A stretch of 64,000 nucleotides of DNA from assembly GCF_018069875.1 (NCBI RefSeq), contig NZ_JAGQDF010000005.1, forward strand, positions 124,001-188,000, in the 5' to 3' direction. The notes under the pieces are model-generated. The model did not search any database. It was given only the letters and a program-made list of their open reading frames with translations, and was not told where the DNA came from. A program made the translations under genes and the position numbers. This document shows, in pieces, positions 772 through 37,862 of the stretch (its first letter is position 1; each line of letters opens with the position of its first letter). The DNA is from Ideonella alba (lineage in GTDB: Bacteria > Pseudomonadota > Gammaproteobacteria > Burkholderiales > Burkholderiaceae_C).

Positions 772-785
772 TCGGGGTCTTGTTG

Positions 786-831
786 GTTGATAATGTCATC
801 CATCATGCCGAACAAAGTTGATAGTGTCAAC
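786..831. promoter_or_regulatory. Paired MarR-type operators over the divergent SIP/MarR promoter
   Basis: GTTGA-TAGTG-TCAAC at 817-831 is a perfect 5-5-5 inverted repeat, and a related copy, GTTGA-TAATG-TCATC, lies at 786-800. Reading towards the SIP gene, TTGACA (complement of 825-830) and CATGAT (complement of 802-807) are 17 bp apart, so a plausible sigma-70 promoter sits inside this pair. The second site overlaps the first codons of the MarR gene. Autoregulation by the MarR protein is inferred from position and symmetry. Confidence 0.6.
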
Positions 832-1272: not shown

Positions 1273-1292
1273 GTGCCCGGCGGGGTAGACCG

Positions 1293-2078: not shown

Positions 2079-2230
2079 GAACATTCCTGGGCCGCGACCG
2101 GTGACCATTGATCTGGGCAGATTGCATCGCGCGGCGAGCCGGCCAGTCTTGCGTTGCCTCAATGGTCGGTGTCCTCGATGGCGCAGCATGGAATCAGCCG
2201 GCGACGCCAACACCGGAAAGCGAGGTGACG

Positions 2231-3286
2231 ATGGGTTCTCTCCGAAGGAGCGCAGTCTGGCTGCGCGCGCTGCTGCTGGCACCCTGGCTGCTGGTGGCTA
2301 CGGCATCACAGGGTGGTGTCGTCGAGGACGCGTCGGCCCTGCAACTGGCCGGCAATCCCGGCGCCGCGATGGCCCTGCTGCGCCCCGCCGCAGAGGCGGG
2401 TGACGCCGCGGCCCAGGTGCTGCTGGGCAGTGCCTATGCCTACGCCTGGGCGGGTCAGCGCGACCCGGCCGAGGCCTATCGCTGGTATCGGCGCGCCGCT
2501 GAATCCGGTGATGTGGAGGGCGCCTACAACACGGCCGTGCTGCTGGCCGCGGGCGACGGCGTTTCGGCGGACGCCGCGGCCGCGGTGGACTGGTACCGCC
2601 GTGCCGCGGAGCAGGGTCACCGCAGCGCGGCGTACAACCTGGGCCTGCTGTACGAGGAGGGTCGCGGTACGGCCGTCGATCTGGCTCAGGCCTTGCAATG
2701 GATCCGGCGAGCGGCGGAGGCAGGACATGCGGCGGCGATGGACCGCATCGGTCTGTCCTACCTGCGGGGCGAGGCCCGACAGCCAAGAGATGCAGTGCAA
2801 GGCCGGGCCTGGGTTCAGCGCGCTGCGGCGGCGGGTCATGCCCAGGCGCAGTTTCGCCTGGCCCTCATGCTGATCCAGGGTGTGGGGGGCTCCGTTGACG
2901 AACATGAGGCCATGCTGTGGCTGCAGCGAGCGGCGGAGGGCGGCCTGCCCGCGGCGATGGGTGAACTGGGTGGTCGATACCTGGGTGGGAAGGGCCTCCC
3001 ACAGGACCTGACCGCGGCGGCGCGTTGGCTGACCGCAGGGGCAGAGCGCGACCATCCCCGCGCGCAGGCCATGCTGGGCCTGATGGCGGCAGACGGCGTG
3101 GGTGTGCCGAAGGATCCGGTGCAGAGCGCTGTCTGGCTGTCGCTGGCCAGCCGGCATGACGATGATCTGGCGCCGATGCGTGACCGCCAACTCGGGCAGC
3201 TCGATGCGACCCAGCGTGCCGAAGTCCAGCGTCGCCTGCAGGCCTGGCAACCGGTGCCATTGTCGAAGCCCATCGGCCAGCGGTGA
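2231..3286 (+). CDS. Sel1-repeat (SLR/TPR-like) secreted protein
   Basis: A 351-residue protein with a signal peptide (MGSLRRSAVWLRALLLAPWLL) followed by about eight Sel1-like repeats of roughly 36 residues. They show the family pattern AGHAAA..IG..YLRG and AAAARW...AERDHPRAQ. GAGGTG lies just upstream of the chosen ATG; longer upstream reading lacks a ribosome site. Sel1 repeats form an alpha-solenoid that scaffolds protein complexes, often in the envelope or in signalling. The gene is divergent from a secreted ankyrin protein and convergent with the alpha-CTD-like gene downstream. No specific partner can be named. Confidence 0.82.
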   Translation: MGSLRRSAVWLRALLLAPWLLVATASQGGVVEDASALQLAGNPGAAMALLRPAAEAGDAAAQVLLGSAYAYAWAGQRDPAEAYRWYRRAAESGDVEGAYNTAVLLAAGDGVSADAAAAVDWYRRAAEQGHRSAAYNLGLLYEEGRGTAVDLAQALQWIRRAAEAGHAAAMDRIGLSYLRGEARQPRDAVQGRAWVQRAAAAGHAQAQFRLALMLIQGVGGSVDEHEAMLWLQRAAEGGLPAAMGELGGRYLGGKGLPQDLTAAARWLTAGAERDHPRAQAMLGLMAADGVGVPKDPVQSAVWLSLASRHDDDLAPMRDRQLGQLDATQRAEVQRRLQAWQPVPLSKPIGQR

Positions 3287-23313: not shown

Positions 23314-25050
23314 ATGCGCATGAAACTGCTTGCCCTGCTGATCACGCTCGGCACGGCCCAGATGGCCCAGGCCGTCGTCACCGACCAGATGATCGAGAAC
23401 GACGCCAAGTCCCCCGGCGACGTGCTGTCGTGGGGCATCGGTACCCAGGGCCAGCGCTTCTCGCCGCTGGCCAAGATCAACACCGGCAACATCGGCAAGC
23501 TGGTGCCGGCCTGGTCCTTCTCGTTCGGTGGCGAGAAGCAGCGCGGCCAGGAGTCGCAGCCGGTCATCCAGAACGGCAAGATGTTCGTCACGGCCTCGTA
23601 CTCGCGCATCTACGCGCTGGACGCCGCCACCGGCCAGAAGCTGTGGAAGTACGAGCACCGCCTGCCCGAAGGCATCATGCCCTGCTGCGACGTGATCAAC
23701 CGCGGCGCCGCGCTGTATGACAACCTGGTCATCTTCGCCACGCTGGACGCCCAGTTGGTGGCCCTGAACCAGGACACCGGTGACGTCGTCTGGAAGGAGA
23801 AGATCGACAACTACGCCGACGGCTACTCCGCCTCGGCCGCGCCGATCATCGCTGGCGGCCTGCTGCTGACCGGCGTGTCCGGCGGCGAATTCGGCGTGGT
23901 GGGCCGCGTCGAGGCGCGCAACCCCAAGACCGGCGCGCTGGTCTGGGTGCGCCCGACCGTCGAAGGCCACATGGGCTACAAGTTCGACGCCAACGGCAAC
24001 AAGACCGAGAACGGCATCTCCGGCACCCAGGGCAAGAGCTGGCCGGGTGACCTGTGGAAGACCGGCGGCGCGGCCACCTGGCTGGGCGGCACCTACAACG
24101 CCAAGACCGGTCTGGCCTACTTCGGCACCGGCAACCCGGCGCCGTGGAACAGCCACCTGCGCAAGGGTGACAACCTCTTCAGCTGCTCGACCGTCGCCAT
24201 CGACGTGAAGACCGGCCAGATCGTCTGGCACTACCAGAACACGCCCAACGACGGCTGGGACTTCGACGGCGTCAACGAGTTCGTCACCTACGACGACGGC
24301 AACCAGGTGCTGGGCGGCAAGGCCGACCGCAACGGTTTCTTCTACGTCAACGACGCCAAGACCGGCAAGCTGGTCAACGCCTTCCCCTTCGTCAAGAAGG
24401 TCACCTGGGCCACTGGCATCGACCTGAAGACCGGCCGCCCGAACTTCGTGCCTGAGAACCGCCCGGGCGACCCCACCGCCGGCGCCGACGGCAAGAAGGG
24501 CCAGAGCGTCTTCGCCGCCCCGTCCTTCCTGGGCGGCAAGAACCAGATGCCGATGGCCTACAGCCCGCAGACCGGCCTGTTCTACGTGCCCGCCAACGAG
24601 TGGGGCATGGAGATCTGGAACGAGCCGATCACCTACAAGAAGGGCGCGGCCTACCTGGGCGCCGGCTTCACCATCAAGACGCTGAACGACGGCCCGATCG
24701 GCGCGCTGCGCGCGATCGATCCCAAGTCCGGCAAGATCGTCTGGGAAGCGCCGAACAACGCCCCGCTGTGGGGTGGTGTGCTGACCACCGGCGGCAACCT
24801 GGTGTTCTGGGGCACGCCGGAAGGCTACCTGCAGGCGGCTGATGCCAAGACCGGCAAGATCGTCTGGAAGTTCCAGACCGGCTCCGGCGTGGTCGCGCCC
24901 CCGGTCACCTGGGAAGACAAGGGCGAGCAGTACGTGGCCGTGGTCTCCGGCTGGGGCGGCGCTGTCCCGCTGTGGGGCGGCGACGTGGCCAAGAAGGTCA
25001 GCTTCCTGGAGCAGGGCGGCTCGGTCTGGGTCTTCAAGATGACCAAGTGA
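23314..25050 (+). CDS. PQQ-dependent alcohol dehydrogenase with lanthanide-type Asp-x-Asp motif
   Basis: A 578-residue periplasmic quinoprotein with a signal peptide ([20 protein letters not shown]) and an eight-bladed beta-propeller. C124-C125 in MPCCDV form the vicinal disulfide over PQQ. The catalytic base is D316 in [10 protein letters not shown]318 two residues later is the extra ligand found in lanthanide-dependent enzymes, where calcium enzymes such as ExaA have alanine (WDFAGVN). No cytochrome domain is fused, so electrons go to a soluble cytochrome, probably PedF. AGGAGA precedes the ATG. A perfect sigma-54 promoter and a strong terminator bracket it as a single-gene unit. Confidence 0.93.
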
Positions 25051-25416: not shown

Positions 25417-27744
25417 TCAGTACTGCCAGCGCAGACCCACCTGGATGGCGCGTGGCGCACCGGGCGCCACGAACAGCGCCGCGGTGTCGTCGCCGGTGAA
25501 CTGGCCCTGCGCATCGAACTGCGTGGCGGCCAGCGCGCCAAAGCTGGCGTAGCGCCGGTTGAAGGCGTTGGTGATCCGACCGAACAGTTCCAGCCCCTTG
25601 ACCTGCGCAGGCTTCCAGGTGGCGCGCAGGTTGACCAGCGCATAGCCTGGCAGCGACAGATCGACGCGTTGGCCCGCGCCGTCCTCCAGCAGACCGTCCT
25701 CATTGCCCGACACGCCGCGGCCCGACAAGGCCTGCAGGTCGGCGCCCAGGCTCCAGCCGCCGCCCACGCGCCAGTCGGCGCTGAGCTTGAACTGGTGGCG
25801 CGGCAGGCCGGCGATACGTGTGCCGGGGGTGATCGTGACGTTGCGCTCGCCCATGCGCAGCACGCCGCTGGCCTGGTAGGTGGCCTCGAGGTGGCTGTAG
25901 CCGGCGCCCAGCTCCCACTCGCCCAGCGTCCATTGCGCGTCGAGGTCCAGGCCTTGGTGGCGGGTGCGCGGGAAGTTGGCGAAGTAGCCCAACTGGCCGG
26001 TGATGCTGGTGCTGCGGAACAGGATGTCGTTGCGGTTGTCGGTGCGGTAGGCGGTGATGCTGCCCTTGACGCCGCCGGGCAGCGCGAAGCGGGCGCCGCC
26101 CTCGACACTGGTGGCGATCACCTGCTTCAGGTAGGGATCGGATTGCAGGCCGGCGGGCAGGCGGCAGGGCTCCTCGGGGTCGGCGCAGCCCAGCTCGATC
26201 ACCGTGGGCACCCGGTTGTTGCGGGCCACGTTGGCGAACAGCGTCAGCGCCGGGCTCAGCCTGTGCGCCACGCCCAGGGCCGGGTTGACGCTGGTGTAGC
26301 GGAAGCGCTCGTGGGGATGGGCCTCGAACAGGCCGGTGTCATCGTTGATCGAGGACAGGGTGTTGCCCACCTGGGCCCAGTTGATGCGCACGGCGCCGGT
26401 GAGGTGGGTCTCGGGCGCGACCTGCCAGGTGTCGCTGGCATAGACGCCAGCACTGGTGGACGTGCCGCTGACCGTGGCGCTCAGCTCGGGGTCTTCGCCG
26501 GCGATCGGCTGCACGCCGCGCGTCGCGTCAAACATGCCGGCCTGTTCGGTTTGCTCGTAGTGCACCGTGGCGCGGTCCAGCGCCGCACCCAGCTGCCACT
26601 GGTGCGCGCCATGGCGGCCCGACAGCGCCAGCGCCACGCCGGCCGACTTCTGCTGCGTGGCGGTGCGGTTGAAGGTGGCGTTGGGCTCGTCCTCGTCGGC
26701 CAGGGGCTGGCGCTGGGCGGCGGCCTCGGCCTCGTCGTCCGCGCCGTCGCCATTGATCGTGGTGCGGCGCGAGTCGCGCACGTAGACCAGTGACTCCAGC
26801 GTGGTGCGCCCATCCAGCTGACGGCGCCACTGGGCGCTGAGCTGAAGCAGCTGGTTGCGGGTCAGGTCGGGGTGGGTGAAGACGGCGGCGCGGTCCAGCG
26901 CGCCCAGGTCGGGCGTGCGCTCGCCGTTCTCGTCCAGCGTCACCAGCGGCACCAGGCCGTTGCCGACCAGGCGGCTGCGGCCGGCCTGCAGGCTGACGAC
27001 AATGTCGTCATCGCCCACCTGACGGCCGATCTTGAACAGCCCATTGGCCAGCCGGCCGGCGGAGTGATCGCGCCAGCCGGTCTCATCGAACAGGCCCACG
27101 CCCGCGTAGTGGTGCCAGCCCTCGTCGTGGCTGCCGCCGTGCGAGAGCTCGAACTTCTTGCGGCCAAAACTGCCCAGCGAGGCCTCGCCACGAAGGCCTG
27201 GCGCCGTCAAGCCGGTGGCGGTGGTCAGCGACAGTGCGCCACCCAGCGTGTTCAGGCCAAAGGCCGGGTTGGCACCGGGCACCAGAGACAGGCTGTGCAG
27301 CGCGAACTCGGGCACCATGTCCCAGTTGACGACGTCACCGAAGGGCTCGTTGAAGCGCACACCATCGACATAGACCGACACACCTTGCGCCGCGCCCAGG
27401 ATGCCCGAGGCCCGGTAGCCGCGAAAGGTCAGGTCGCCCTGGAAGGGGCTGCCCTGGATGTCATTGACCTGGGCGCCGGGTACGCGCCGGCCCAGGAAGT
27501 CGGTGGTGTTGTCGGCCTGCGCCTCGTCCAGCGCGGCGCGGCGCACGACCTGGGTGCCGTAGGGCAGGGCATTGCGGTCCACGCCCTGGCCGGGCAGCGG
27601 CGAGGTGCCAACCACCTCGACCTGCTGCGGCGCTGTCTGCGCTGCCAGCGGACCACTCATGCCCAGCAGGGCGGCACTGCACAGTGCCAGGCGCACGGAC
27701 AATGCGCAGCGGGTTTCAGGGTGAACCCGGTGGGGAGCGGGCAT
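25417..27744 (-). CDS. TonB-dependent outer-membrane receptor of the PQQ cluster
   Basis: A 775-residue receptor with signal peptide, a plug domain (about residues 55-175, with DFLGRRVPGAQVNDIQGSPFQ and VYVDGVRFNEPFGDVVNWD) and a beta-barrel ending in the aromatic QY. The early segment VEVVGTSPLPGQGVD is the likely TonB box and plug entry. Such receptors import scarce ligands. Position beside a lanthanide-type dehydrogenase suggests a lanthanophore (LutH-like) or PQQ itself (PqqU-like), but nothing in the sequence decides. AGGAGA precedes the ATG, and a weak sigma-54 element lies upstream inside the divergent kinase gene. Confidence 0.88.
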   Translation of the reverse strand: MPAPHRVHPETRCALSVRLALCSAALLGMSGPLAAQTAPQQVEVVGTSPLPGQGVDRNALPYGTQVVRRAALDEAQADNTTDFLGRRVPGAQVNDIQGSPFQGDLTFRGYRASGILGAAQGVSVYVDGVRFNEPFGDVVNWDMVPEFALHSLSLVPGANPAFGLNTLGGALSLTTATGLTAPGLRGEASLGSFGRKKFELSHGGSHDEGWHHYAGVGLFDETGWRDHSAGRLANGLFKIGRQVGDDDIVVSLQAGRSRLVGNGLVPLVTLDENGERTPDLGALDRAAVFTHPDLTRNQLLQLSAQWRRQLDGRTTLESLVYVRDSRRTTINGDGADDEAEAAAQRQPLADEDEPNATFNRTATQQKSAGVALALSGRHGAHQWQLGAALDRATVHYEQTEQAGMFDATRGVQPIAGEDPELSATVSGTSTSAGVYASDTWQVAPETHLTGAVRINWAQVGNTLSSINDDTGLFEAHPHERFRYTSVNPALGVAHRLSPALTLFANVARNNRVPTVIELGCADPEEPCRLPAGLQSDPYLKQVIATSVEGGARFALPGGVKGSITAYRTDNRNDILFRSTSITGQLGYFANFPRTRHQGLDLDAQWTLGEWELGAGYSHLEATYQASGVLRMGERNVTITPGTRIAGLPRHQFKLSADWRVGGGWSLGADLQALSGRGVSGNEDGLLEDGAGQRVDLSLPGYALVNLRATWKPAQVKGLELFGRITNAFNRRYASFGALAATQFDAQGQFTGDDTAALFVAPGAPRAIQVGLRWQY

Positions 27745-27784
27745 GGAACTTGTCTCCTCGAATCATTGTTGGGAATACATCGTC

Positions 27785-29269
27785 ATGGAAGCAAGCCAGG
27801 TTCCTGAACCCGCGGGAAGACTTCCCGAACCGCCGCTCACCCTGCCGCGCCTGGTGATGCGCCGTGCCGCCTGGGTGGCTGTGGCCGGGGTGCTGCTGTG
27901 GGCGGTGATCGGGCTGGCGCGCATGGCCGCCGACGTCGACGAGGAACTGGATGGCGCGCGCGCCCTGGCCAGCCTGTTCGAGCGTCTGGCCAGCGCCAGC
28001 GCCATGCCCGACCCCGACCGTGCCCGCCGCCTGCTGGCGCCCGGCCCCGGCGACGGCCCGACCCGGCACCTGCAGCTGCGCGTCACCGACGCCAGCGGCG
28101 GCACGCTGCTGGTGGCCGAGCCCGAGGGCCAGTTGCCGGCGCCGGTACAGGCTGTCCTGGCGGCGGTCGAGTCCGTGTTCGGCGACACACCGTCGTTCAC
28201 CGTGGCCTGGATGCAGCCGCGGCCTCAGGGCGAGGCCTGGCAGGTGGCGCTGACCGCGCGGCCGCAGAGCGAGCGCGCGGAGGCCTTGATCGGCCTGGGC
28301 GTGGACACGCTGCTGCTGGCGCTGGTGGTGCTGGGCATGCTGGTGGCGATCGGCTGGAACACGGGTCGCGCGCTGGCCCCGCTGGCGCGCCTGGTGGCGG
28401 CGATCGGCGAGATGGGTGACGGCGAGGGCCGGCACCCCGGCGTGCGGCGCCTGCCCGCGATGCCGGTGGCCGAGCTGGAGACCATCGCCGGTGCCTTGCG
28501 CCACCTGGATGGCGAGCTGGCCACCGCGCAGGCCCAGCGCCGCCAGCTGGCGCGCCAGCTGCAGGTGCTGCAGGAGGAGGAGCGCCAGCGCCTGGCCCAG
28601 GAGCTGCACGACGAATTCGGCCAGCACCTGACCGCGCTGCGGGCCAACGCGGCCTGGCTGCAGCGCCGTCTGGCCGGCCAGGACGAACTGGCCGGCGTGG
28701 CGCGCGAGATGGCGCAGCAGTGCGAAGCCATCCAGCAGGACGTGCGCGGTGTGCTGGCGCGCTTGCGGCCACCCGGCACCGACGAGGCGCCGACCCTGCT
28801 CAGCGTGGGTCACATGCTCGACGCGCTGCAGCGCGCCTGGCCGCGCGGCGCGGCCGATGCCACCCGCCTGGTGCTGGACCTGCAACTGCAGGACGCCCAG
28901 GGCCAGCCCCTGGACTGGGCGCTCGCCGCGCAGCGGCCCCTGTCGGCCGAGACGGCAATGGTGCTCTACCGCATCAGCCAGGAGGCCCTGAGCAACGTGG
29001 CCCGCCATGCGCAGGCCAGCACGGCCCGGCTGACCATCCAGGCGCGGCTGCGGGCCGAGGGCCGCGGCCTGGGCCTGGACTGGTCGGTGCAGGACGACGG
29101 CCGGGGCATTGCCGACCCGGCGGCCGCGCTGCAGCAGGGCAGCGGACTGGCCGGCATCAAGCAGCGCCTGTGGTCGCTGGGCGCCGAGCTGACGGTGCAC
29201 CCCGCCCGCCCGGGCACGCTGCTGGCCGCCCACATCGAGGTCGACCTGCCGGAGACTGTCCATGGTTGA
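27785..29269 (+). CDS. NarL-type sensor histidine kinase of the PQQ cluster
   Basis: A 494-residue membrane kinase. A membrane segment at about residues 27-47, a periplasmic domain of about 130 residues and a second segment near 178-200 are followed by HAMP. The HisKA_3 box is EERQRLAQELHDEFGQHL with phospho-accepting H275. The ATPase domain has SQEALSNVARHA, DDGRGI and GLAGIKQRL. It overlaps its response regulator by 8 bp. The start is 40 bp from the divergent TonB receptor start. Homologous pairs in Pseudomonas (PedS2/PedR2) control calcium/lanthanide dehydrogenase switching; that role here is inference. Confidence 0.88.
   Translation: MEASQVPEPAGRLPEPPLTLPRLVMRRAAWVAVAGVLLWAVIGLARMAADVDEELDGARALASLFERLASASAMPDPDRARRLLAPGPGDGPTRHLQLRVTDASGGTLLVAEPEGQLPAPVQAVLAAVESVFGDTPSFTVAWMQPRPQGEAWQVALTARPQSERAEALIGLGVDTLLLALVVLGMLVAIGWNTGRALAPLARLVAAIGEMGDGEGRHPGVRRLPAMPVAELETIAGALRHLDGELATAQAQRRQLARQLQVLQEEERQRLAQELHDEFGQHLTALRANAAWLQRRLAGQDELAGVAREMAQQCEAIQQDVRGVLARLRPPGTDEAPTLLSVGHMLDALQRAWPRGAADATRLVLDLQLQDAQGQPLDWALAAQRPLSAETAMVLYRISQEALSNVARHAQASTARLTIQARLRAEGRGLGLDWSVQDDGRGIADPAAALQQGSGLAGIKQRLWSLGAELTVHPARPGTLLAAHIEVDLPETVHG
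27791..27805 (-). promoter_or_regulatory. Weak sigma-54-like element upstream of the TonB receptor gene
   Basis: On the minus strand AGGAAC-CTGGC-TTGC has the obligatory GG and GC ten bases apart and a perfect TTGC, but two mismatches in the -24 box. It points at the TonB receptor, with the -12 box 47 bp before its start codon, and lies in the 5' end of the divergent kinase gene. It fits a shared regulon with the two strong elements; it could be chance. Confidence 0.3.
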
Positions 29270-29915
29270 GTTGTCCGCCCCACTGGTGCCGATCCGCGTG
29301 GCCCTGGCCGACGACCACGCGGTGGTGCGCGAGGGCTACCGCCGGCTGCTGTCGCTGGAGTCCGATCTGGTGGTCTGCGGCGAATTCGCCGACGCCGACG
29401 CGGTGTTCGACGCCCTGCAGCGCGGCAGCCTGGCCGCCGATGTGCTGGTGCTGGACCTGAGCATGCCCGGACGCAGCGCGCTGGACCTGCTGCGCCGCAT
29501 CCAGGCGCACTGGCCGGCGCTGCGGGTGCTGGTGTTCTCGATGCACGAGGACCCGGCACGGGTGCAGCAGGCGCTGCGCGCTGGCGCGCTGGGCTACATC
29601 ACCAAGAGCAGCCCACCCGAGGACCTGGTGGCCGCGGTGCGCCATGTGGCGCGTGGCCAGGCGGTGCTGTCGTCCGACATTGCCGCGCATGCCCAGGCGC
29701 CGGCCGGTCCGCTGCCGCACCTGTCGCTGAGCCCGCGCGAATTCGAGGTGCTGCGTGGCCTGCTGCAGGGCCAGGCGCTGGAGCAGATCGCCGAGCAGCT
29801 GCACATCAGCCCGAAAACGGTGTCGAACCTGCAGACCCAGTTGCGGCAGAAGCTGGGCGTGGCCAATGCGGTGGAGCTGTTGCGCTATGCACAGCAGCAC
29901 GGCCTGATGCCCTGA
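29262..29915 (+). CDS. LuxR/NarL-family response regulator
   Basis: A 217-residue regulator with a receiver domain (ALADDHAVVREGYRRLL, phospho-acceptor D65 in VLVLDLSMPG, Ser in VFSMHED, Lys in YITKSS) and a C-terminal LuxR HTH (LSPREFEVLRGLLQG and ISPKTVSNLQTQLRQKLGV). It pairs with the overlapping kinase. Likely targets are the dehydrogenase cluster genes, by analogy with PedR2 and ExaE-type regulators. Confidence 0.9.
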   Translation: MVELSAPLVPIRVALADDHAVVREGYRRLLSLESDLVVCGEFADADAVFDALQRGSLAADVLVLDLSMPGRSALDLLRRIQAHWPALRVLVFSMHEDPARVQQALRAGALGYITKSSPPEDLVAAVRHVARGQAVLSSDIAAHAQAPAGPLPHLSLSPREFEVLRGLLQGQALEQIAEQLHISPKTVSNLQTQLRQKLGVANAVELLRYAQQHGLMP

Positions 29916-29930: not shown

Positions 29931-30920
29931 TCAGCCCTTGTTGGCCGCCAGCCCCAGGCGCTCGACGGTGCGCTTCTCGGCAGCAAAGGCCTCGCGCATG
30001 GCGGCACCGTACTCCTCGGGGCCCAGGTACATCGGCTCCTGGTCGTACTTGGCCAGCTCGGCCAGGTGCGCGGGGTCGAACAGCGCGGCCTTGAAGGCGT
30101 CGTGCAGCACCTTGACCACGGCCGGGCTCATGCCGCGCGGGCCGGCCAGGCCATAGGGCGAGCTGGCGACGATGCCGTGTCCCAGCTCCTTGAGCGTGGG
30201 CACGGTGTTCCAGCGCTTGTGGCGGTGTTCGCCGAAGGTCACCAGCAGGCGCAGCTTGCCGCTCTCCACAAACGGCGCAAAGCCATTGCTGTTGATGCCC
30301 ACCTGCACCTGACCCGAGGCCACCGCCAGCATTTGCTCGGCCGTGCCCTTGTAGGGCACGTGGTTGTAGCTCAGGCCCTTGCGCGCCATCAGTTCGTCCA
30401 TCACCACGTGCGGTGTGGTGCCGACGCCATTGGTCGAGATGGTCAGTTCGCCGGGCTTGGCCTTGGCAGCGGCGAACAGGTCGTCCAGGGTCTTGAAAGG
30501 GCTGCCCGCCGCGACCACGATGCCGAAGGTCACGCCGGTGAGCTGGATGATGGGCGTGGTGTCGCGGATCGGGTCCCACTGCACCTTCTGCGTCCAGGGC
30601 ATGCGGAACACCGGCTGCGGCATCTGGGCCACGGTATAGCCATCGGGCGCGGCCTGCTGCAGCACCGGCATGGCCAGCGTTCCGCCAGCGCCCGAGCGGT
30701 TCTCGGTGATCACCTTCTGGCCCAGGTGGCGGCTGGTCAGCTCGGCCAGCAGGCGCATCGTCAGGTCGGTGGCGCCGCCGGCCGGCCAGGGCACCCACAG
30801 CGTCACGGGGCGGCTGGGAAAGCCGTCGGGCGCCTGGGCCTGCGCGGCGGGCCACGCGGCCCCCAGGCCCAGCGCGGCCAGGGCCTGCAGCGCGGCACGG
30901 CGATCGGGGTTCATTGCCAT
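29931..30920 (-). CDS. TctC/Bug-family periplasmic binding protein
   Basis: A 329-residue extracytoplasmic binding protein of the Bug/TctC family, very common in Burkholderiales. It has a signal region with RR (NPDRRAALQALAALGLGAAWPAAQAQA), PSRPVTLWVPWPAGGATDL, and TENRSGAGGTLAM in the carboxylate-binding part. No TctA/TctB partner is near, so it is an orphan. It is the last gene of the PQQ-ABC operon. ATG at 30914 (ATGA overlap with the lipoprotein stop) or at 30920 (GGAA eight bases upstream) can start it. Ligand unknown; an organic acid from alcohol oxidation is an inference. Confidence 0.85.
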   Translation of the reverse strand: MAMNPDRRAALQALAALGLGAAWPAAQAQAPDGFPSRPVTLWVPWPAGGATDLTMRLLAELTSRHLGQKVITENRSGAGGTLAMPVLQQAAPDGYTVAQMPQPVFRMPWTQKVQWDPIRDTTPIIQLTGVTFGIVVAAGSPFKTLDDLFAAAKAKPGELTISTNGVGTTPHVVMDELMARKGLSYNHVPYKGTAEQMLAVASGQVQVGINSNGFAPFVESGKLRLLVTFGEHRHKRWNTVPTLKELGHGIVASSPYGLAGPRGMSPAVVKVLHDAFKAALFDPAHLAELAKYDQEPMYLGPEEYGAAMREAFAAEKRTVERLGLAANKG

Positions 30921-31612
30921 TCGGTCAGTTCCATCGTCAGGGTGCCACCGGTCAGGAAGGTCGAGTTGGCGGGCTCTTCGCGCACCAGCTTGACCAGGCC
31001 GACTCCGGGGCAGTACCACTCGCGCGTGGTCAGCGGCATGTCCTTCCAGCCCACCACCGGGTCGGCGAACAGGCGCAGCGTGGCGATGCCGCGCACGCGC
31101 AGGCAGCCGCTGAAGTCGCCAGCCGCGGTCTTGACCGCCTCGCCCAGCGCCTCGATCGTGTAGTTCATCGGGATGCTGGGGTGGCTGTGGCGGATCTCGG
31201 GCGGGAACTCCTGGCGCCGCCGCAGCAGGTAGGCGGTGGTGGTGGCCTGCCAGCCGGTGCCCACGGCCAGCGGCGCCTTGAGCACGTAGCGGGGCAGGGC
31301 GTCCTTCTTCGGCTCGTCGTCCAGATCGGACTTGGTGGCCACGCGGAAGATGCCGGTGTCGTCGCTGCGCAGCCAGTAGTCGATACCGTCATCGCTGCGG
31401 CGGTGCCAGGCGCTGCCGTCGGCCAGGCTGTCGCGGCCCAGGCTGCGCATCACACGGGTCTCGGTCTCGGTGGTGTTGTTCTCGTACTCGCTGCGGACCT
31501 GGTAGGTCCAGCGGTGGCCGTCGTCGAGCGGGAACAGCTCGGTGCCAGGCGGCTTGGAGCAGCCCGCCAGCAGTGCACAGGCCATCAGGGGCGGAACCAG
31601 GCGCAGCATCAT
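30911..31612 (-). CDS. Lipoprotein of the ExbB/ExbD-like module
   Basis: A 233-residue protein with a lipoprotein signal (MMLRLVPPLMACALLAGCSK; lipobox LLAGC, Cys at 18), so it is anchored to a membrane facing the periplasm. The mature domain is beta-rich with FPLDDGHRWTYQV, a phrase common in uncharacterised secreted beta-sandwich proteins, and two further cysteines. It starts by ATGA overlap with the 164-residue membrane protein upstream. The context with proton-channel-like subunits suggests an outer-membrane or peptidoglycan-side partner of that complex. Function unknown. Confidence 0.72.
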   Translation of the reverse strand: MMLRLVPPLMACALLAGCSKPPGTELFPLDDGHRWTYQVRSEYENNTTETETRVMRSLGRDSLADGSAWHRRSDDGIDYWLRSDDTGIFRVATKSDLDDEPKKDALPRYVLKAPLAVGTGWQATTTAYLLRRRQEFPPEIRHSHPSIPMNYTIEALGEAVKTAAGDFSGCLRVRGIATLRLFADPVVGWKDMPLTTREWYCPGVGLVKLVREEPANSTFLTGGTLTMELTEWQ

Positions 31613-32103
31613 TTCTCGGGCAGCTGGGGCACGGGCATGTCGCGGATCTTGACTTCCTGCTCGTCGCTGCCGGGCCGCAGCCAGGCCAGGCCGCGCTTGC
31701 CGGCCTTGGGCGTGGCCGTGCCCATCTGGCTGACGCCCTGGCGGGCCTTCTTCATGCCCTCGTTGAGCAGGCTGTGCAGGTCCTTGGTGTAGGGCAGCTT
31801 GTAGGCCCGCGGCTGGGCGCTGGGCTTGCCGTTCTCGATCGCGTTGACCCACACGTACAGCGCCCCGGCGCTCTTGTTGCTGGGCTCCTCGATCACCGCG
31901 GCCAGCAGCGCGAAGCGCTCGGGCAGGGCATCCGGGGTGGGCCAGCCGCTGAGCTGGTGCACGGCCTCGTCGGCGTAGAAGTAGAAGACCGCCACGCCGG
32001 TGACCAGCAGGGCCTTCAGCCAGGCCGGCCAGCGCGACTGCAGCAGGGCCAGGGCGCACAGCAGCAGCAGCACGCTGAAGGAGAGCACGACGGCGAGCGT
32101 CAT
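31609..32103 (-). CDS. Small membrane protein of the ExbB/ExbD-like module
   Basis: A 164-residue protein with two N-terminal membrane segments (about residues 3-21 and 28-44, the latter LLVTGVAVFYFYADEAV) and a basic C-terminal domain of about 115 residues containing LPYTKDLHSLLNEGMKKARQG. I do not recognise the family. It follows the ExbD-like gene by four bases and overlaps the lipoprotein gene by ATGA, so it is made with the channel subunits and is probably part of the same complex. Confidence 0.65.
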   Translation of the reverse strand: MTLAVVLSFSVLLLLCALALLQSRWPAWLKALLVTGVAVFYFYADEAVHQLSGWPTPDALPERFALLAAVIEEPSNKSAGALYVWVNAIENGKPSAQPRAYKLPYTKDLHSLLNEGMKKARQGVSQMGTATPKAGKRGLAWLRPGSDEQEVKIRDMPVPQLPEK

Positions 32104-32107
32104 CGGT

Positions 32108-32713
32108 TCAGATCCTCTCGACCAGGGTCTTGGGCAGGGTGTTGATGTTGGTGACGCTGCCGTCGGGCAGCAGCGTGAAGCGCACGGCCGTGGCTTCGTC
32201 GCCCTTGCGGGCGACGCTGACCTGACCGTAGTAGACGACCTCGGCGCGCGGGTTGACCTTGATGACCGAGACCGTCACCTCGACCGGCTGCCCGTCCTTG
32301 GAGTCGTAGTAGTGCACGTTGACCGTGTACTCGCCGGCGGCGATGCCGCGCAGCGTGACGACTTCCTGGTTCAGCGGGTTGCTGATCTGCTTGCCGTTGA
32401 TGACGATGGTGTCGTTGGCCAGCCCGCGGTCATCGCGGTCCAGGTGCATCATGCCGGCCTCGCGGGCGCGGAACCACACCAGGTTGCCACCCGGGTCCTG
32501 GACCCAGGTGTCGATGTCGTTGGGGTTCATGTCCGGCCAGGACACGTTGATGATGTACTCGGCCTTGGCCGGGATGTCCCCGGCCTTGAGCGCCTTGGGG
32601 TTCATCGCCAGCAGCGCCACGATGAAGCAGAACACGAAGGCGATCAACATATTGAACAACATGTCGTAGAACGGATCGACCTCGGGCTCGCGGGCGTGGC
32701 GGCGGCTGGGCAT
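32108..32713 (-). CDS. ExbD/MotB-like protein with large periplasmic beta domain
   Basis: A 201-residue protein with one N-terminal membrane helix. The segment VDPFYDMLFNMLIAFVF aligns with ExbD TPFIDVMLVLLIIFM, placing D17 at the proton-channel aspartate. The rest is not the usual short ExbD periplasmic domain: NDIDTWVQDPGGNLVWF, LDRDDRGLANDTIVING and GEYTVNVHYYD look like the YfaP/DUF2135-type beta-sandwich. It lies between the ExbB-like gene and a small membrane protein in the PQQ-ABC operon. A motor-like complex using the proton gradient is inferred. Confidence 0.7.
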   Translation of the reverse strand: MPSRRHAREPEVDPFYDMLFNMLIAFVFCFIVALLAMNPKALKAGDIPAKAEYIINVSWPDMNPNDIDTWVQDPGGNLVWFRAREAGMMHLDRDDRGLANDTIVINGKQISNPLNQEVVTLRGIAAGEYTVNVHYYDSKDGQPVEVTVSVIKVNPRAEVVYYGQVSVARKGDEATAVRFTLLPDGSVTNINTLPKTLVERI

Positions 32714-32716
32714 GGC

Positions 32717-33421
32717 TCAGCTCCGTGCGGTGGCGAAGCGGCGCAGCCCTTCGCGCTGGCAGTCGGCCACCAGGGTGTCGGCAAAGCGGTCCAGCCGGGT
32801 GAGCTGCAGGCCCAGCAGGATGTTGCCTACCAGGCCCACCATCGTGGTCAGCAGCGCGATGCCCAGACCGGCGGTCAGGCTCTTGAGCAGGTCCTGCGAT
32901 TGCGAGGCGTCAAAGCTCTGCAGCTGGCCGATGTGCAGTGCCAGCACCGAGAAACCGATCACCTTGCCCAGCAGGCCCAGCTTGAGCTGGATGCCGTTGA
33001 CCCACCAGGCGGTCTGGTGCGGGCCGTGGCTGTCTTCCAGCAGCAGGTCCAGCGGCGCCGCGCTGTCGCGGGGCGTACTGTCCAGGGCGCGCAGGTACTC
33101 GCCGGCCCAGCCCTGCAGTTGCGTCAGCGGCGTGCCGGCACGGGCGGCCTCCAGATGGCGGCGCTGGCGCTCGAGTTCACGGCTGCGGGCGCCGGCCCAC
33201 AGCGTGGACGTGGCAAAGACGACGATGATCACCAGCGTCAGGCCGGTGGGATCGGAGGTCAGCAGCAGCGCCCAGACGCCGCGCACGCCCAGCAGCCAGG
33301 TGCCGAACAGCATCAGTCCGCCCAGCGCCAGCCATTCGAAGAGCAGCGGCTCGCTCTCGCGCTGCGCAGCGACCGGCGCTGCGCTGGCGGGGCGGCGCAG
33401 CGCACCCAGCAGTTTCATCAT
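32717..33421 (-). CDS. MotA/TolQ/ExbB-like proton-channel protein
   Basis: A 234-residue membrane protein. Membrane segments lie near residues 28-50, 58-78, 150-170 and 190-213. The latter pair (GLLGKVIGFSVLALHIGQLQ and GLGIALLTTMVGLVGNILLGLQLTRLDRF) has the MotA/ExbB domain pattern, and a cytoplasmic domain lies between the pairs. It begins at the last base of the ABC permease stop codon and precedes an ExbD-like partner by three bases. No TonB, Tol or flagellar genes are near, so this is a separate channel dedicated to the PQQ cluster. Confidence 0.75.
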   Translation of the reverse strand: MMKLLGALRRPASAAPVAAQRESEPLLFEWLALGGLMLFGTWLLGVRGVWALLLTSDPTGLTLVIIVVFATSTLWAGARSRELERQRRHLEAARAGTPLTQLQGWAGEYLRALDSTPRDSAAPLDLLLEDSHGPHQTAWWVNGIQLKLGLLGKVIGFSVLALHIGQLQSFDASQSQDLLKSLTAGLGIALLTTMVGLVGNILLGLQLTRLDRFADTLVADCQREGLRRFATARS

Positions 33422-34248
33422 CAGGCTGGTCCTCCGGGACCCCGTTTGGTGAGTGCACCGAAGCCGCGCTGCGGGTCGTAGCCCCAGGCCGCCAGCGCAA
33501 AGCACAGCGCCAGCGTGCCCAGCACCACCAGCGGGGCGATGCCGGGGTCCTTGCCGTACAGTGCAAAGCGCAGCCATTCGACCGCATGCGTGAAGGGGTT
33601 GAAGCGGGCGATCCACCACACCCACTCGGCGCCCGATTCCTCGAGCTTCCACAGCGGGTAGAGCGCGGTGGACATGAAGTACATCGGGAAGATGACGAAG
33701 TTCATCGTGCCGGCGAAGTTCTCGAGCTGCTTGATGTGCACGCTCAGCAGCAGGCCCAGCGCGCCCAGCATCAGCGCCGCGCCCACCGCAGCGGCCAGCA
33801 CCATCGGTGTCTGCGGACCGAGCAGCGGCAGCTCGGTGCCCAGCGCCCAGGCCACCAGCACGAAAGCCAGCGCCTGCAGCAGCGACAGCGCGGCCGTGGC
33901 GCACAGCTTGGCCAGCAGGATCCACCACCTCGGCAGCGGCGCGGTCAGCAGCAGGCGCATCAGGCCCATCTCGCGGTCGTAGACCATGGCCAGGCTGGAC
34001 TGCATGCCGTTGAACAGCAGCACCATGCCCACCAGGCCGGGCGCGATGTAGACGTCGTAGGGGATGTAGGTGTCGTAGGGTTCGTTGACGGCGATGCCAA
34101 ACACATTGCGAAAGCCCGCGGCGAACACCGCCAGCCACAGCAGCGGCCGCACCAGGGCCGAGGCCAGGCGGCCGTACTGGCGCAGGAACTTCAGCACCTC
34201 GCGGCGGACGATGGCCCACAGGGCCTGCAGCGCATGTCGCAGGTTCAT
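33421..34248 (-). CDS. ABC-2-type permease of the PQQ-linked ABC system
   Basis: A 275-residue ABC-2 permease with six membrane segments. The typical parts are RPLLWLAVFAAGFRNVFG, the PGLVGMVLLFNGMQSSLAMVYDREMGLMRLLLTAPLPRWW amphipathic region and NFVIFPMYFMSTALYPLW. Permeases of this type are usually exporters. It matches the permease found beside PQQ-dependent alcohol dehydrogenases in Pseudomonas ped/exa clusters, whose substrate is not settled. It overlaps the binding-protein gene upstream by ATGA. Confidence 0.88.
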   Translation of the reverse strand: MNLRHALQALWAIVRREVLKFLRQYGRLASALVRPLLWLAVFAAGFRNVFGIAVNEPYDTYIPYDVYIAPGLVGMVLLFNGMQSSLAMVYDREMGLMRLLLTAPLPRWWILLAKLCATAALSLLQALAFVLVAWALGTELPLLGPQTPMVLAAAVGAALMLGALGLLLSVHIKQLENFAGTMNFVIFPMYFMSTALYPLWKLEESGAEWVWWIARFNPFTHAVEWLRFALYGKDPGIAPLVVLGTLALCFALAAWGYDPQRGFGALTKRGPGGPA

Positions 34249-35396
34249 CCGCCCCTCGCCTTGCACAGCTTCTCGCCCTGGTCCGCGCCCAGGGTGTCGA
34301 GCACGTTCTTCGGATGCAGCACGCCGTCCACCGGCGCCAGCGACACCACGCCCTGGCCGTCGGTCATCAGCAGGCGCTGGCGCAGCTGGCCGTCCCAGGC
34401 GCGGAAGCTCATCGACACGCCCTTGGAGCCGTCCAGCTCGACCTGGGCCAGCGCCGCCTGCATCTCGGCGGGCTTGCCCTTGGGCACGGCCAGCACCGCA
34501 GCGGCCAGCGCCTTGCCGGCCATCCAGGCGGCCCAGTCGGCCTGCTGCATGGCCCGCCCGCTGGCGTTGCGCGCAAAGCGGCGCGAGACCTGCGGCGCGC
34601 CGAAGCGGTCGAACTGGGCGTGCCAGCCCAGCGCGGTGAGGCCGGCGTCGCCCACCACCGGACGCGGCAGCACGGTGCGGTAGGGCAGGCTGCGGGCGAA
34701 CTCGCCGTCGCTGTCGACCACCCAGACCGCGTCGTAGCTGCCGGTGGTCAGCAGGCGCGGGTTGGCCAGGTCGCGCTCGCGCGGGTCGGCCGACAGCTTG
34801 AACGGCTTGCTGCCGGCCAGCTTCAGGCCATAGCGCTTGATCGCCGCCTGCACCACGGCGGCGCGGCGCTGGTCGTCGGCCGAGGGGCCGGTCAGCAGCA
34901 GCACCTGCTGCCAGCGCTGGCTGGCCAGGGTCTGGCCGATGGCATCGGCGCGCATGCGCTCGGAGGGGATCAGGTGGTACAGGCGCGGCCGGCAGTCGGC
35001 CTCGCGCAGGCGGTCTTCCGGGTTGCCCACATTGAGCACCGGCAGCTTGGCGCCATCGGCCGCAGCCAGCGTCCAGGCGGCAGGCAGGTCGGTCACCAGG
35101 GCCAGTGCGCCGGCCTTCTCGGCCTTCTGGGCGGCGGCCTTGGCGGCGTCGGGCGAGGCCACCGACACCACGTCCAGCGCCAGGCCGTGGCCGGCCGCGT
35201 CGAGCTCGAGCTGGCTGTCCTTCAGCGCCATCTGCAGGCCGTCCTGGGCCGGCCCCGTGGGGTGGCCGAAGTAGGCGCGCTCGACGCGGTTGCGCTCCAG
35301 CCGCGGGTCGTCGTCGGGCAGCAGCAGTGTCACGCGCAGCGGCGCAGCCGAGGCGCTGGCGGCGGCCAGCGCAAGCAGGCAGGCCAGCGGCTTCAT
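34245..35396 (-). CDS. PQQ-alcohol-dehydrogenase-associated ABC substrate-binding protein
   Basis: A 383-residue periplasmic type I binding-protein fold with signal peptide MKPLACLLALAAASASA. It has LLLPDDDPRLERNRVERAYFGHPTGPAQDGLQMAL at the start, LYHLIPSERMRADAIGQTLA and GWHAQFDRFGAPQVSRRFA, matching the family found only beside quinoprotein alcohol dehydrogenases (TIGR03863-type, from memory). A binding protein with an ABC-2 type exporter is unusual and suggests it senses or hands over a periplasmic compound. ATGA overlaps on both sides. Confidence 0.85.
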   Translation of the reverse strand: MKPLACLLALAAASASAAPLRVTLLLPDDDPRLERNRVERAYFGHPTGPAQDGLQMALKDSQLELDAAGHGLALDVVSVASPDAAKAAAQKAEKAGALALVTDLPAAWTLAAADGAKLPVLNVGNPEDRLREADCRPRLYHLIPSERMRADAIGQTLASQRWQQVLLLTGPSADDQRRAAVVQAAIKRYGLKLAGSKPFKLSADPRERDLANPRLLTTGSYDAVWVVDSDGEFARSLPYRTVLPRPVVGDAGLTALGWHAQFDRFGAPQVSRRFARNASGRAMQQADWAAWMAGKALAAAVLAVPKGKPAEMQAALAQVELDGSKGVSMSFRAWDGQLRQRLLMTDGQGVVSLAPVDGVLHPKNVLDTLGADQGEKLCKARGG

Positions 35397-36355
35397 TCGG
35401 CGAGCAGCGCGGCGTAGGGCACGCGTCCGACCGGGATGCTCTTGAGGGCTTTGGCGCTGGCGATGTCGACCACGGTGACGTCGTCCGACAGGCCGTTGAC
35501 CACCCACAGCTTCTGGCCGGCCTTGTCCAGCGAGACATTCCAGGCCCGCTTGCCCACCAGCACGGTGTCGGTCACCTGGCGGCTGGCCACGTCGACAAAG
35601 GCCACGCGGTTGGCCTGGCCGAGCGCCACGAAGGCCCGCCGCCCGTCCTTGCTCATCACGATGCCCACCGGGGTGATGTCGCTGGCGCGCAGGCCCTTGA
35701 CCTCGAACTTCAGCGTGGCCACCACGCTGAGGTCCCTGGTGCTGACGATGCTGACGCTGGCGCCCAGCTCGTTGGTGACCCACAGCTGGCTGCCGTCCGG
35801 GGTGAGCACCATGCGGCGCGGGCGCTTGCCCACGGCGATGTTCTTGACCACCTTGCCGGCCGCCGGATCGACCACGTGGACCAGGCTGGCGACCTCGGAG
35901 GTGACGTAGACGTGCTTGCCATCGGGCGCAGTCAGCACGCCCTCGGGCTCCTCGCCCACCTTGACGGCCTTGAGCTGCTTGCCGCTGGCGGCGTCCAGCA
36001 CCAGCAGCTCGCCTTCCTCCTCGGCGCTGACGTACATCAGCTTGCCGTCGGGTGAGAGGTCGAAGGCCTCGGGGTCGTCGCCCATCGGGATGCGGGCCAC
36101 CGACTTGCGGCTGGCCAGGTCGATGATGTCGGCCTGCGAGGAATCGCCGCAGGCGACCATCATCCGCTTGCCGTCGGGCAGCACGCGCAGGTGGCGCGGG
36201 CGTTTGCAAGTGGGCACGGTGCCGGTGACGCCCATCGTGGCCATGTCGATCAGCGTCAGCGCATGGTCCTTCTCGCTGCTGACCCAGGCGGTGCCCTGGG
36301 CCTGGGCGGCGGCGGCCAGCAGCAGGCCGAGCAGGGGAATCAGGGTGGGCTTCAT
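35393..36355 (-). CDS. PQQ-catabolism-associated YVTN beta-propeller protein
   Basis: A 320-residue secreted beta-propeller (signal MKPTLIPLLGLLLAAAAQAQG) with about seven repeats of the YVTN type: DGKLMYVSAEEEGELLVLDAASG, DGKHVYVTSEVASLVHVVDPAAG and so on. It matches the family always found in PQQ-linked ABC operons (TIGR03866-type, from memory). It may bind PQQ or protein partners in the periplasm. It overlaps both the ATPase gene upstream and the binding-protein gene downstream by ATGA. Confidence 0.88.
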   Translation of the reverse strand: MKPTLIPLLGLLLAAAAQAQGTAWVSSEKDHALTLIDMATMGVTGTVPTCKRPRHLRVLPDGKRMMVACGDSSQADIIDLASRKSVARIPMGDDPEAFDLSPDGKLMYVSAEEEGELLVLDAASGKQLKAVKVGEEPEGVLTAPDGKHVYVTSEVASLVHVVDPAAGKVVKNIAVGKRPRRMVLTPDGSQLWVTNELGASVSIVSTRDLSVVATLKFEVKGLRASDITPVGIVMSKDGRRAFVALGQANRVAFVDVASRQVTDTVLVGKRAWNVSLDKAGQKLWVVNGLSDDVTVVDIASAKALKSIPVGRVPYAALLAE

Positions 36356-37065
36356 GTGGTGGCCTTGATGAAAGCTTCTTCGAGCTGGGCGGCTCCCAGT
36401 TGTTCCGCGACCTGGGCCGGTGGCCCATCGGCCAGCAGCCGGCCCTTGTGCAGCACCAGCACGCGGTCGGCGGCCTCGGCTTCCTCCACCAGGTGCGTGG
36501 CCCACAGCACCGAGGTGCCACGCGCGGCCACGTCGGCGCGCACCGCGGCCAGCAGGTCGCGCCGCGACTTCGGGTCCAGGCCCACCGTGGGCTCGTCCAT
36601 CAGCAGCAGCTTCGGGTGGTGCAGCAGCGCGCGCACCAGCTCGACCTTGCGCCGGTTGCCGCCCGAGAGCTCGCGCACCGGACGGTCCAGGTCGGCCGTG
36701 GTGCCCAGCGCCTGGCAGCCGGCGTCGATGCGTTCGCGCGCCAGCGCGCCCGGCAGGCCGTGCAGGTCGGCGTGGAACTGCAGGTTGCGCCGCACCGACA
36801 GGTCCAGGTCCAGCGACATCTGCTGGAACACCACGCCGATGTGGGCCAGAGCCTTCACGGCCGAGCGACTCAGCGACAGGCCGGCCACCTGCACCTCGCC
36901 ACCATCGGCGACGAACAGGCCGGTGAGCACCTGGAACAGCGTGGACTTGCCGGCGCCATTGGGGCCGAGCAGCGCCACGAATTGACCGGCCGGGATGGCG
37001 ACGCTGAGGCCGGCCAGGGCGGTGCGTTCTCCGTATCGCTTGGTCAGGGACTGGATCTCGAGCAT
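36352..37065 (-). CDS. ATP-binding protein of the PQQ-linked ABC system
   Basis: A 237-residue ABC ATPase with Walker A GPNGAGKS, Q-loop VVFQQMSLDLDLS, signature LSGGNRRKVEL, Walker B LLLMDEPTVGLDP and H-loop ATHLVEEAE. The LSGGNRRKVEL form and the DrrA-like layout match exporters with ABC-2 permeases. It follows the PqqB-like gene by 14 bp and overlaps the beta-propeller gene by ATGA. Confidence 0.92.
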   Translation of the reverse strand: MLEIQSLTKRYGERTALAGLSVAIPAGQFVALLGPNGAGKSTLFQVLTGLFVADGGEVQVAGLSLSRSAVKALAHIGVVFQQMSLDLDLSVRRNLQFHADLHGLPGALARERIDAGCQALGTTADLDRPVRELSGGNRRKVELVRALLHHPKLLLMDEPTVGLDPKSRRDLLAAVRADVAARGTSVLWATHLVEEAEAADRVLVLHKGRLLADGPPAQVAEQLGAAQLEEAFIKATT

Positions 37066-37079
37066 GAAACGGGGTGAGG

Positions 37080-37862
37080 TCAGAGTTCGATCACCATACC
37101 GTCATAGGCGGGCTCGAAACCATCCCGACCGACCCCACTGGCGCTGCGCGCCAACAGCACCTTGCGCTGCGCCCGCCAGTCGGGCACGGGAAGGTGTCCC
37201 GACTCGGGCCAGGTGGTGCGGTCATCGAGCAGCACGCAGTCGGCGCTGCTGAGCCAGTCGAGCTGCGGTTCACCCAGCGCCTGGCCCCCTGCGGCACAGA
37301 ACAGTCGCTGGCCGGTGCGGTGGTCCAGCACCGCCAGCGCGATGCTGTGGCCCACGGCCACCGGCGCCTCGTGCGGCTCCAGCACGCGCGGGGCCAGCGC
37401 ATCGGTGGCCAGCGCGGTGAACTCCAGGTCGGGCAGGCCCTCGACGCGGAAGCTGGCCGACAGGGTCTCGCCGGCCACCGGGATCACATGCCAGTGCACA
37501 CCGCAGTAGCGCTGCAGCACCTGCAGCACCGGCATGTCCTGGCTGAGCACCTCGAACACCGCCGGCGTGGCGTACAGCGCGATGGGTGCGCCATCGCGCA
37601 GGCTCAGCAGGCCGCTGACGTGGTCGACCTGGGCGTCGGTCAGCACGACCGTGCGCACCTCGGCATCGGCCAGGCCGGCGTGGTGGCGCAGCGTGGGGTC
37701 GGCCACCAGCTGGTCGGCCACATTGGGCGCCACATTGAGCAGCGCCCACTGCTCACCGCGGTCGGACAGCGCGATCGCGCCATGCCGGCTGGTGGGCGCG
37801 GGCTCCAGGCCGGCCCGCTGCGCATCGGCCGCGCCACCGCCTCGCAGCACGACGAGCTTCAT
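37080..37862 (-). CDS. PqqB-like metallo-beta-lactamase-fold protein, degenerate
   Basis: A 260-residue protein that follows PqqB closely in the core: VRTVVLTDAQVDHVSGLLSL, ALYATPAVFEVLSQDM and the exact end AYDGMVIEL. It differs where PqqB has metal or cofactor-linked residues: the N-terminal CxCxxC segment is absent and HINNTNP near the C-terminus is replaced by LLARSAS in a region about 40 residues shorter. It therefore looks like a paralogue that has lost enzyme function and may bind or carry PQQ. It heads the ten-gene operon. No pqqA, C, D or E is in the window. Confidence 0.8.
   Translation of the reverse strand: MKLVVLRGGGAADAQRAGLEPAPTSRHGAIALSDRGEQWALLNVAPNVADQLVADPTLRHHAGLADAEVRTVVLTDAQVDHVSGLLSLRDGAPIALYATPAVFEVLSQDMPVLQVLQRYCGVHWHVIPVAGETLSASFRVEGLPDLEFTALATDALAPRVLEPHEAPVAVGHSIALAVLDHRTGQRLFCAAGGQALGEPQLDWLSSADCVLLDDRTTWPESGHLPVPDWRAQRKVLLARSASGVGRDGFEPAYDGMVIEL

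Follow-up and report, generated by a model that had tools for sequence, protein, structure and literature searches.

A conserved set of four genes, encoding an ExbB/MotA-like protein, an ExbD-like protein, a 164-residue membrane protein (gene tm164) and a lipoprotein, accompanies genes linked to pyrroloquinoline quinone (PQQ) in Ideonella alba, where it lies within a stretch of 64,000 nucleotides (contig NZ_JAGQDF010000005.1, positions 124,001 to 188,000; hereafter the window). The cassette is real and conserved and no description of it was found; it goes with the PQQ system, while its core represents an ExbB-class module of wider occurrence. An earlier note, made from the letters of this DNA, had tied it too closely to the adjacent genes of an ATP-binding cassette (ABC) transporter. 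The reading that is favored here, with confidence that falls a little short of even, is that the four genes would constitute a dedicated inner-membrane, proton-driven energizer of the PQQ- and lanthanide-dependent alcohol-oxidation system. To our knowledge, the route by which PQQ reaches the periplasm is still open. The passage of lanthanides across the outer membrane of Pseudomonas putida was termed unresolved in the excerpted text of a review (PMC12997753), and a conserved, deletable cassette behind pqqE, PqqB-like, ABC and dehydrogenase genes is a direct genetic handle.

In the window the cassette belongs to a minus-strand run (37862-29931) in which genes for a PqqB-like hydrolase, an ABC ATPase, a beta-propeller, a binding protein and a permease are followed by the exbB-like, exbD-like, tm164 and lipoprotein genes, and which is closed by the gene of a TctC-type protein (Table 1). 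The coordinates of the open reading frames, their strand and the tight junctions had been given correctly in the earlier note. The stop codon of the permease gene shares one base with the start of exbB (TGATG at 33423-33419; another ATG stands at 33418), the gaps between exbB and exbD and between exbD and tm164 are 3 and 4 base pairs (bp), an ATGA overlap joins tm164 and the lipoprotein gene (ATG at 31612), and the latter overlaps the TctC gene by 10 bp, assuming that the first ATG is the start. A promoter scan found none, terminator-like sites numbered 2 vs. 2.2 expected, and an Rfam scan gave no match.

The same arrangement recurs in other genomes. Scanning of a species-genome collection gave 161 relatives of the ExbD-like protein, of which the best 80 were kept and their loci fetched; these come mainly from Burkholderiales genera, the others being bins labeled Pseudomonadota, beta proteobacteria, Vitreoscilla, or bacterium. 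Since the four genes are found on one strand and in this order at 76 of the 80 loci, the cassette is more than a chance assembly; each of the four exceptions (L054, L055, L061, and L075) misses one gene where the sequence ends. The closest locus in the collection, from which the window's own records may be excluded, is that of Ideonella aquatica (L008), with a 99% identical ExbD-like protein, and two other loci, L050 and L054, encode identical ExbD-like proteins. Only 7 genomes in an even sample of 300 from the order gave a match, one of them of a divergent type (L123), thus the cassette is rare.

The association with PQQ genes was examined at the level of loci and of genomes. For 73 loci the sequence extends 1.5 kb or more beyond exbB on its upstream side; in these, the gene directly upstream encodes the permease in 32 (including L019 and L052, where the two genes overlap), a PqqB-like protein in 12, PqqE in eight (found by a sequence pattern, three being confirmed as TIGR02109), an alcohol dehydrogenase (ADH) in one and none of these in 20. 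Where the permease gene occupies this place, a TctC-type gene comes after the lipoprotein gene in 28 of the 32 cases. In L038 and L068 pqqE, ABC genes and the cassette form one run, of which L038 shows just the ATPase and the permease of the four ABC-type genes. Strict PQQ markers (permease, binding protein, propeller, PqqE, or ADH-like protein) are present at 61 of the 80 loci and at 43 of the 49 that span at least 14 kb; when weak matches to the PqqB-like protein (75 bits) and to ADH (60 bits) are allowed, a PQQ-linked gene is present at 73 of 80 and 48 of 49, respectively. The genome-level comparison covers 42 of the 80 loci, picked in favor of isolates and long loci (one genome, G802, is identical with G141 of the order sample). 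The PedC-type permease scores over its cut-off in 36 of these 42 cassette genomes vs. 3 of 200 genomes in the order sample; the latter three (G000, G049, and G141) all carry the cassette, and three more genomes lie below the cut-off. An ADH at least 80% identical to that of the window is encoded in 39 of the 42 vs. the same three of the 200, and one at least 73% identical in 16 of the 200, two of these being partial. The cassette stays with PQQ genes at large, not with the PQQ-ABC genes in particular.

The ADH of the window bears WDFDGVN at residue 315, a lanthanide-type motif with an extra Asp two residues past the catalytic Asp; this second Asp is found in 23 of the 24 matches to the motif pattern at 87 loci. 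Such an extra Asp is described as the signature of lanthanide-type enzymes in the text available of PMC11845868, and growth at low La3+ was reported to require PedA1A2BC, an ABC type that matches the one in the window (PMC6839425, in part).

The designation of the first cassette protein as ExbB/MotA-type was borne out by family homology. The window protein itself matches PF01618 (MotA_ExbB) just under the cut-off of 22.9 bits (21.0 bits, E 3e-4), and relatives from viral contigs (L218, 36.3 bits; L193, 37.8 bits) and from L123 (34.6 bits) exceed it. In hhalign, the family profile aligned over transmembrane helices (TM) 2 and 3 with three canonical ExbB-type proteins that the genome also encodes (94.7% probability, E 6e-8). 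On these profile comparisons, the wider ExbB-like family is homologous to the MotA/TolQ/ExbB family. A profile search of solved-structure sequences gave one weak match, 5sv0 (E 0.27). Seven other proteins encoded in the genome match MotA/ExbB over the Pfam cut-off, so that the cassette protein is the eighth and the weakest. The conserved residues include T183 and T192/T193. The pore-threonine positions are those that we take to correspond to E. coli ExbB: the TM3 Thr (T193) is kept in 71 of 72 diverse rows, while position 153 in TM2 is Thr in 62 and Lys in eight, the window protein included. Thr153 occurs together with the channel Asp of the ExbD-like partner in eight beta-proteobacterial pairs. 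A pairing of this Asp (D17) with Lys153 was considered: Lys153 always comes with D17 (75 of 75 pairs), but in eight pairs D17 is accompanied by Thr153, and which residue is present depends on lineage, so that the pattern does not speak for a contact.

For the second protein, the earlier note had proposed an ExbD-like chain with the channel Asp and a DUF2135-like domain. What holds is the single hydrophobic helix predicted by hydropathy at residues 18-36, the D17 just before it, and a DUF2135-like domain; the ExbD identity is not recovered. Of 70 diverse relatives 66 retain D17, as do all 52 of the non-redundant viral rows, counts for which the 80 viral rows were reduced to 52 by a crude identity filter and from which L124 (a large DUF2135 protein) and fragments shorter than 100 residues were left aside. 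All 70 relatives share W59, D66, D68, D94, D95, G97, E117, R122, and G127. The match of the window protein to DUF2135 (PF09906) is weak (E 0.11, 13.1 bits vs. a cut-off of 22), and the family profile (A5) matches a VIT-DUF2135 protein at 36.9 bits (E 1.9e-6) in a region overlapping its DUF2135 stretch. A search with PF02472 (ExbD/TolR) gave no match to the protein, it is not among the 12 ExbD matches over cut-off in the genome, and hhalign to the canonical ExbD of the same genome reached 0.9%, with a thin template of 10 sequences, several of them alike. At the level of sequence it does not count as an ExbD. In profile searches of solved-structure sequences it gave chance-level rows, as did the lipoprotein. 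The beta domain bears an acidic motif (W59, D61, D66, D68, D94, D95, E117, and E128); as its acids do not vary among the viral relatives either, the idea of a lanthanide-binding site at this motif was given up.

The 164-residue protein had been expected to span the membrane with two helices, of which a strong one is predicted by hydropathy at residues 3-21, while the second (about 28-46) was seen by eye alone; a profile search of solved-structure sequences with this protein gave nothing. Among the cassette lipoproteins, 72 of 83 show a lipobox pattern, with Ser, Gly, or Gln at position +2 in 57 and Asp in four. By the usual rule, such +2 residues mean an outer-membrane lipoprotein, and the cassette lipoprotein is thus probably located in the outer membrane. 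A Pfam search of the 164-residue protein and the lipoprotein for a TonB match found none.

Table 1. Genes of the cassette and of its surroundings in the window.
Feature	Coordinates	Strand	Remarks
ExbB/MotA-like membrane protein, 234 residues	32717..33421	-	PF01618 21.0 bits and family profile; start possibly 33418
ExbD-like protein, 201 residues: one helix with D17, then DUF2135-like beta domain	32108..32713	-	
164-residue membrane protein (tm164): hydrophobic N-terminus, putative periplasmic C-terminal domain	31609..32103	-	conserved neighbor of exbD, in cellular as well as viral loci
Lipoprotein: lipobox LAGC, Ser at +2, conserved Cys170 and Cys201	30911..31612	-	
ABC permease, PedC/LutF type	33421..34248	-	TIGR03861 357 bits, cut-off 241
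ABC substrate-binding protein, PQQ_ABC_bind type	34245..35396	-	TIGR03863 349 bits, below cut-off 413.6
PQQ-associated beta-propeller	35393..36355	-	TIGR03866, over cut-off
ABC ATPase	36352..37065	-	TIGR03864, over cut-off
PqqB-like metallo-hydrolase	37080..37862	-	TIGR02108 142 bits, below cut-off 245
TctC/Bug-type binding protein, at the end of the run	29931..30920	-	
PQQ ADH with WDFDGVN	23314..25050	+	TIGR03075 739 bits

Several known systems resemble parts of the cassette. Like ExbB/ExbD of the Ton system and TolQ/TolR, it pairs a multi-helix protein of the ExbB family with a neighboring gene for a single-helix partner that has an Asp near the helix start; in contrast to them, it has no PF02472 match or detected ExbD profile similarity, bears a DUF2135-like domain instead, adds the 164-residue partner and the lipoprotein, and has no TonB or TolA. 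The periplasmic part of GldM has an immunoglobulin-like fold. In the GldL/GldM motor of gliding and type IX secretion, the periplasmic part of the axle is likewise of a non-ExbD type, according to the consulted part of PMC9389320; the cassette differs in having one small domain, other genes and other hosts, and the likeness drawn here is one of description. DUF2135 proteins are reached by the family profile through the VIT-DUF2135 protein, yet the cassette domain alone stays below the Pfam cut-off and forms the head of an ExbD-like protein. With the PedA1A2BC/Lut transporter and the ped cluster the window shares the ABC gene types, a PedF-type cytochrome and a lanthanide-type ADH, whereas ExbB, ExbD, and MotA have 0 occurrences in a gene-by-gene review of that cluster (PMC12997753). 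The remark of the earlier note that no such subunits are known in described ped/exa/xox clusters agrees with the extracts of the lanthanide and ped literature, in which ExbB/ExbD is either absent or the Ton energizer. No open-access paper was found to mention DUF2135 together with ExbB and ExbD, and PQQ terms were never paired with MotA/TolQ/ExbB among the open-access matches listed.

If the four genes act as a dedicated energizer of alcohol oxidation, the ExbB-like protein would form a ring around that helix of the ExbD-like protein which carries the Asp, and the entry of protons would shift or rotate this axle, on which the DUF2135-like periplasmic domain may take the place of the usual ExbD domain. 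The 164-residue partner and the lipoprotein, the latter probably at the outer membrane, would transmit the work to the envelope, and the outcome may be the delivery of a lanthanide or PQQ to the periplasmic dehydrogenase, or the assembly of the holoenzyme. The gene set, its conservation, the ExbB homology, the Asp and the link with PQQ genes are observed; proton flow, the ring-and-axle assembly, the contact with the outer membrane and the cargo are what we infer.

The trio without the lipoprotein extends beyond PQQ loci. A phylum sample of 398 genomes gave 20 matches in one search and 21 in another, several of them weak, and added 10 genomes of a Bradyrhizobium-like family (f88, the name being inferred), of which eight loci were fetched (L108-L115). 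All eight contain exbB-exbD-tm164 with no recognizable lipoprotein; in seven the trio stands beside a histidine kinase/response regulator pair resembling that of the window at 27743-29915, and in the eighth (L113) its neighborhood encodes a quinoprotein-relay hydrolase (TIGR04559), a protein of the MoxJ type (TIGR03871) and a PedC permease. In a member of Burkholderiales (L123:6293-10544) the trio comes immediately after the genes of a SorA/SorB-like sulfite dehydrogenase pair, neither of which reaches its cut-off. A scan of viral contigs gave 136 relatives of the ExbD-like protein, and of the best 80, which were kept (L180-L259), 78 carry the exbB-exbD-164-like core, six with a weak third gene. 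Counted singly, exbB is present at 79 loci, exbD at 80 and tm164 at 73 (E ≤1e-3), with 6 more at E 0.011-0.068; L211, which has no exbB, and L240, which has no tm164, are cut at contig ends. Upstream neighbors include T4-type Gp23, gp15, UvsY, neck proteins, Rz-like spanins, and endolysins, so some contigs, at least, are real phages. Hsp20, ClpS, epimerase, head and tail genes also occur in this mixed neighborhood, whose tallies set aside 17 of the 126 neighbors upstream and 14 of the 137 downstream; they did not uphold a reading of the trio as a phage lysis cassette. An ExbD-like match was found in nine annotated phage records, of which two represent one phage and three match at 26% identity. 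The trio of Rhizobium phage 16-3 is p038, p040, and p042, by reading, and in L117 it resides in a prophage-like region. A PHROGs scan of ten trio proteins returned just phrog_1735 (unknown function), for two ExbD-like proteins. No report of a phage ExbB-class trio was seen among the literature matches listed.

These observations raise the alternative that the cassette is a domesticated phage-type envelope module, or the reverse, in which the trio would protect or remodel the envelope or adjust the proton gradient, and in PQQ bacteria would shield the periplasmic oxidation machinery instead of moving cargo. The shared gene order on viral contigs, in phage 16-3 and in L117 speaks for it, as do the spanins and endolysins upstream; however, the mixed viral neighbors do not fix a lysis role, the link with PQQ appears closer than a general envelope role would lead one to expect, and the cellular PQQ and viral forms fall into separate clades, so that we regard it as unlikely. 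In an unrooted tree of 74 ExbD-like rows, which gives no direction of transfer, the selected beta-proteobacterial (12) and Bradyrhizobium-like (4) forms group together (99/92), a viral clade (the 52 filtered rows, 93/85) lies beside this group, and the SorAB, Azospirillum, L116, and rhizobial-phage forms stand apart. It is conceivable, though we hold it with more doubt than conviction, that a further ExbB-class proton-driven lineage, with a DUF2135-like axle head and a 164-residue-type partner, is common to PQQ/lanthanide bacteria, where it would power an unexplained step of quinoprotein transport or assembly, and to phages, where it would be a virus-encoded proton motor. An ExbB-class trio on phage genomes would, if true, be a further surprise.

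The proposal of a dedicated energizer has to be set against a number of observations. The trio core is found also in phages and behind the SorAB-like pair, and the cassette has no TonB- or TolA-like protein. The eight Bradyrhizobium-like pairs that were read, from 8 of the 10 genomes of this kind, all have Val in place of D17, and the usual TM2 pore Thr is Lys153 in 75 of 92 pairs, that of the window among them, in a table which counts one genome twice (L003 = L062) and omits L123 as well as L118-L122 (the same places as L002-L006). Strict PQQ markers are missing from 19 of the 80 loci. The permease stands elsewhere in 4 of the 73 loci and is absent from 37, and 6 of the 42 cassette genomes have none over the cut-off (G781, G782, G784 with two adjacent partial matches, G786, G793, and G803). 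The tie to the PQQ-ABC genes is thus not borne out in the form given in the earlier note, and the survey of co-occurrence it had proposed gave a half-and-half answer as to whether the genes are usually found apart. The close ADH is missing from 3 of the 42 genomes (G803, G804, and G805), and 12 of the 16 order-sample genomes with the at least 73% identical ADH are outside the cassette matches, so that the enzyme can exist without the cassette; as most sampled genomes with a related ADH do not carry it, confidence in the energizer was lowered. Moreover, the cassette genomes are mutually related, so their counts are not independent and shared ancestry inflates the contrasts.

The Val17 and Lys153 variants would also suit a non-energized scaffold, i.e., a membrane complex derived from ExbB/ExbD on which the ABC transporter or the dehydrogenase would dock, a reading that appears improbable in view of the D17 and T193 kept in nearly all diverse relatives. 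Another reading, that the four proteins are additional components of the PedA1A2BC/Lut lanthanide ABC transporter, is suggested by the place of their genes right after that of the permease, both in the window and at the 32 loci; it is very unlikely, given that the permease is not directly upstream in 41 of the 73 loci and is not found over cut-off in the six genomes named above. The P. putida ped transporter was furthermore described, in the part of PMC6839425 at hand, as a four-gene set with no such subunits, the genome not having been searched for the cassette elsewhere. An ordinary ExbB/ExbD energizer for the TonB-dependent receptor encoded at 25417-27744 would account for the receptor gene in the same cluster and for a related receptor (at least 100 bits) at 16 of the 49 loci of at least 14 kb, but it is very unlikely with no TonB gene in the cassette, a replaced ExbD domain, 7 other MotA/ExbB and 12 ExbD matches over cut-off in the genome, and no such receptor seen at the other 33 long loci.

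Some observations stand beside these arguments. The TonB-dependent receptor of the window matches siderophore-receptor and PqqU models weakly, far under their cut-offs. In two Rhizobium phages (L260:6232-9120 and L261:4577-7502) a gene for a trypsin-like protease adjoins the trio, as it does, by eye, in L117. Seven Azospirillum plasmid records hold the places of two ExbD-like relatives each; at the one place that was read (L262, Azospirillum brasilense) no PQQ gene was seen by eye. Finally, at L027, whose cassette has no adjacent ABC genes, genes for an aldehyde oxidoreductase of the tungsten type and for a ferredoxin-like protein were recognized by eye at 660-3033.

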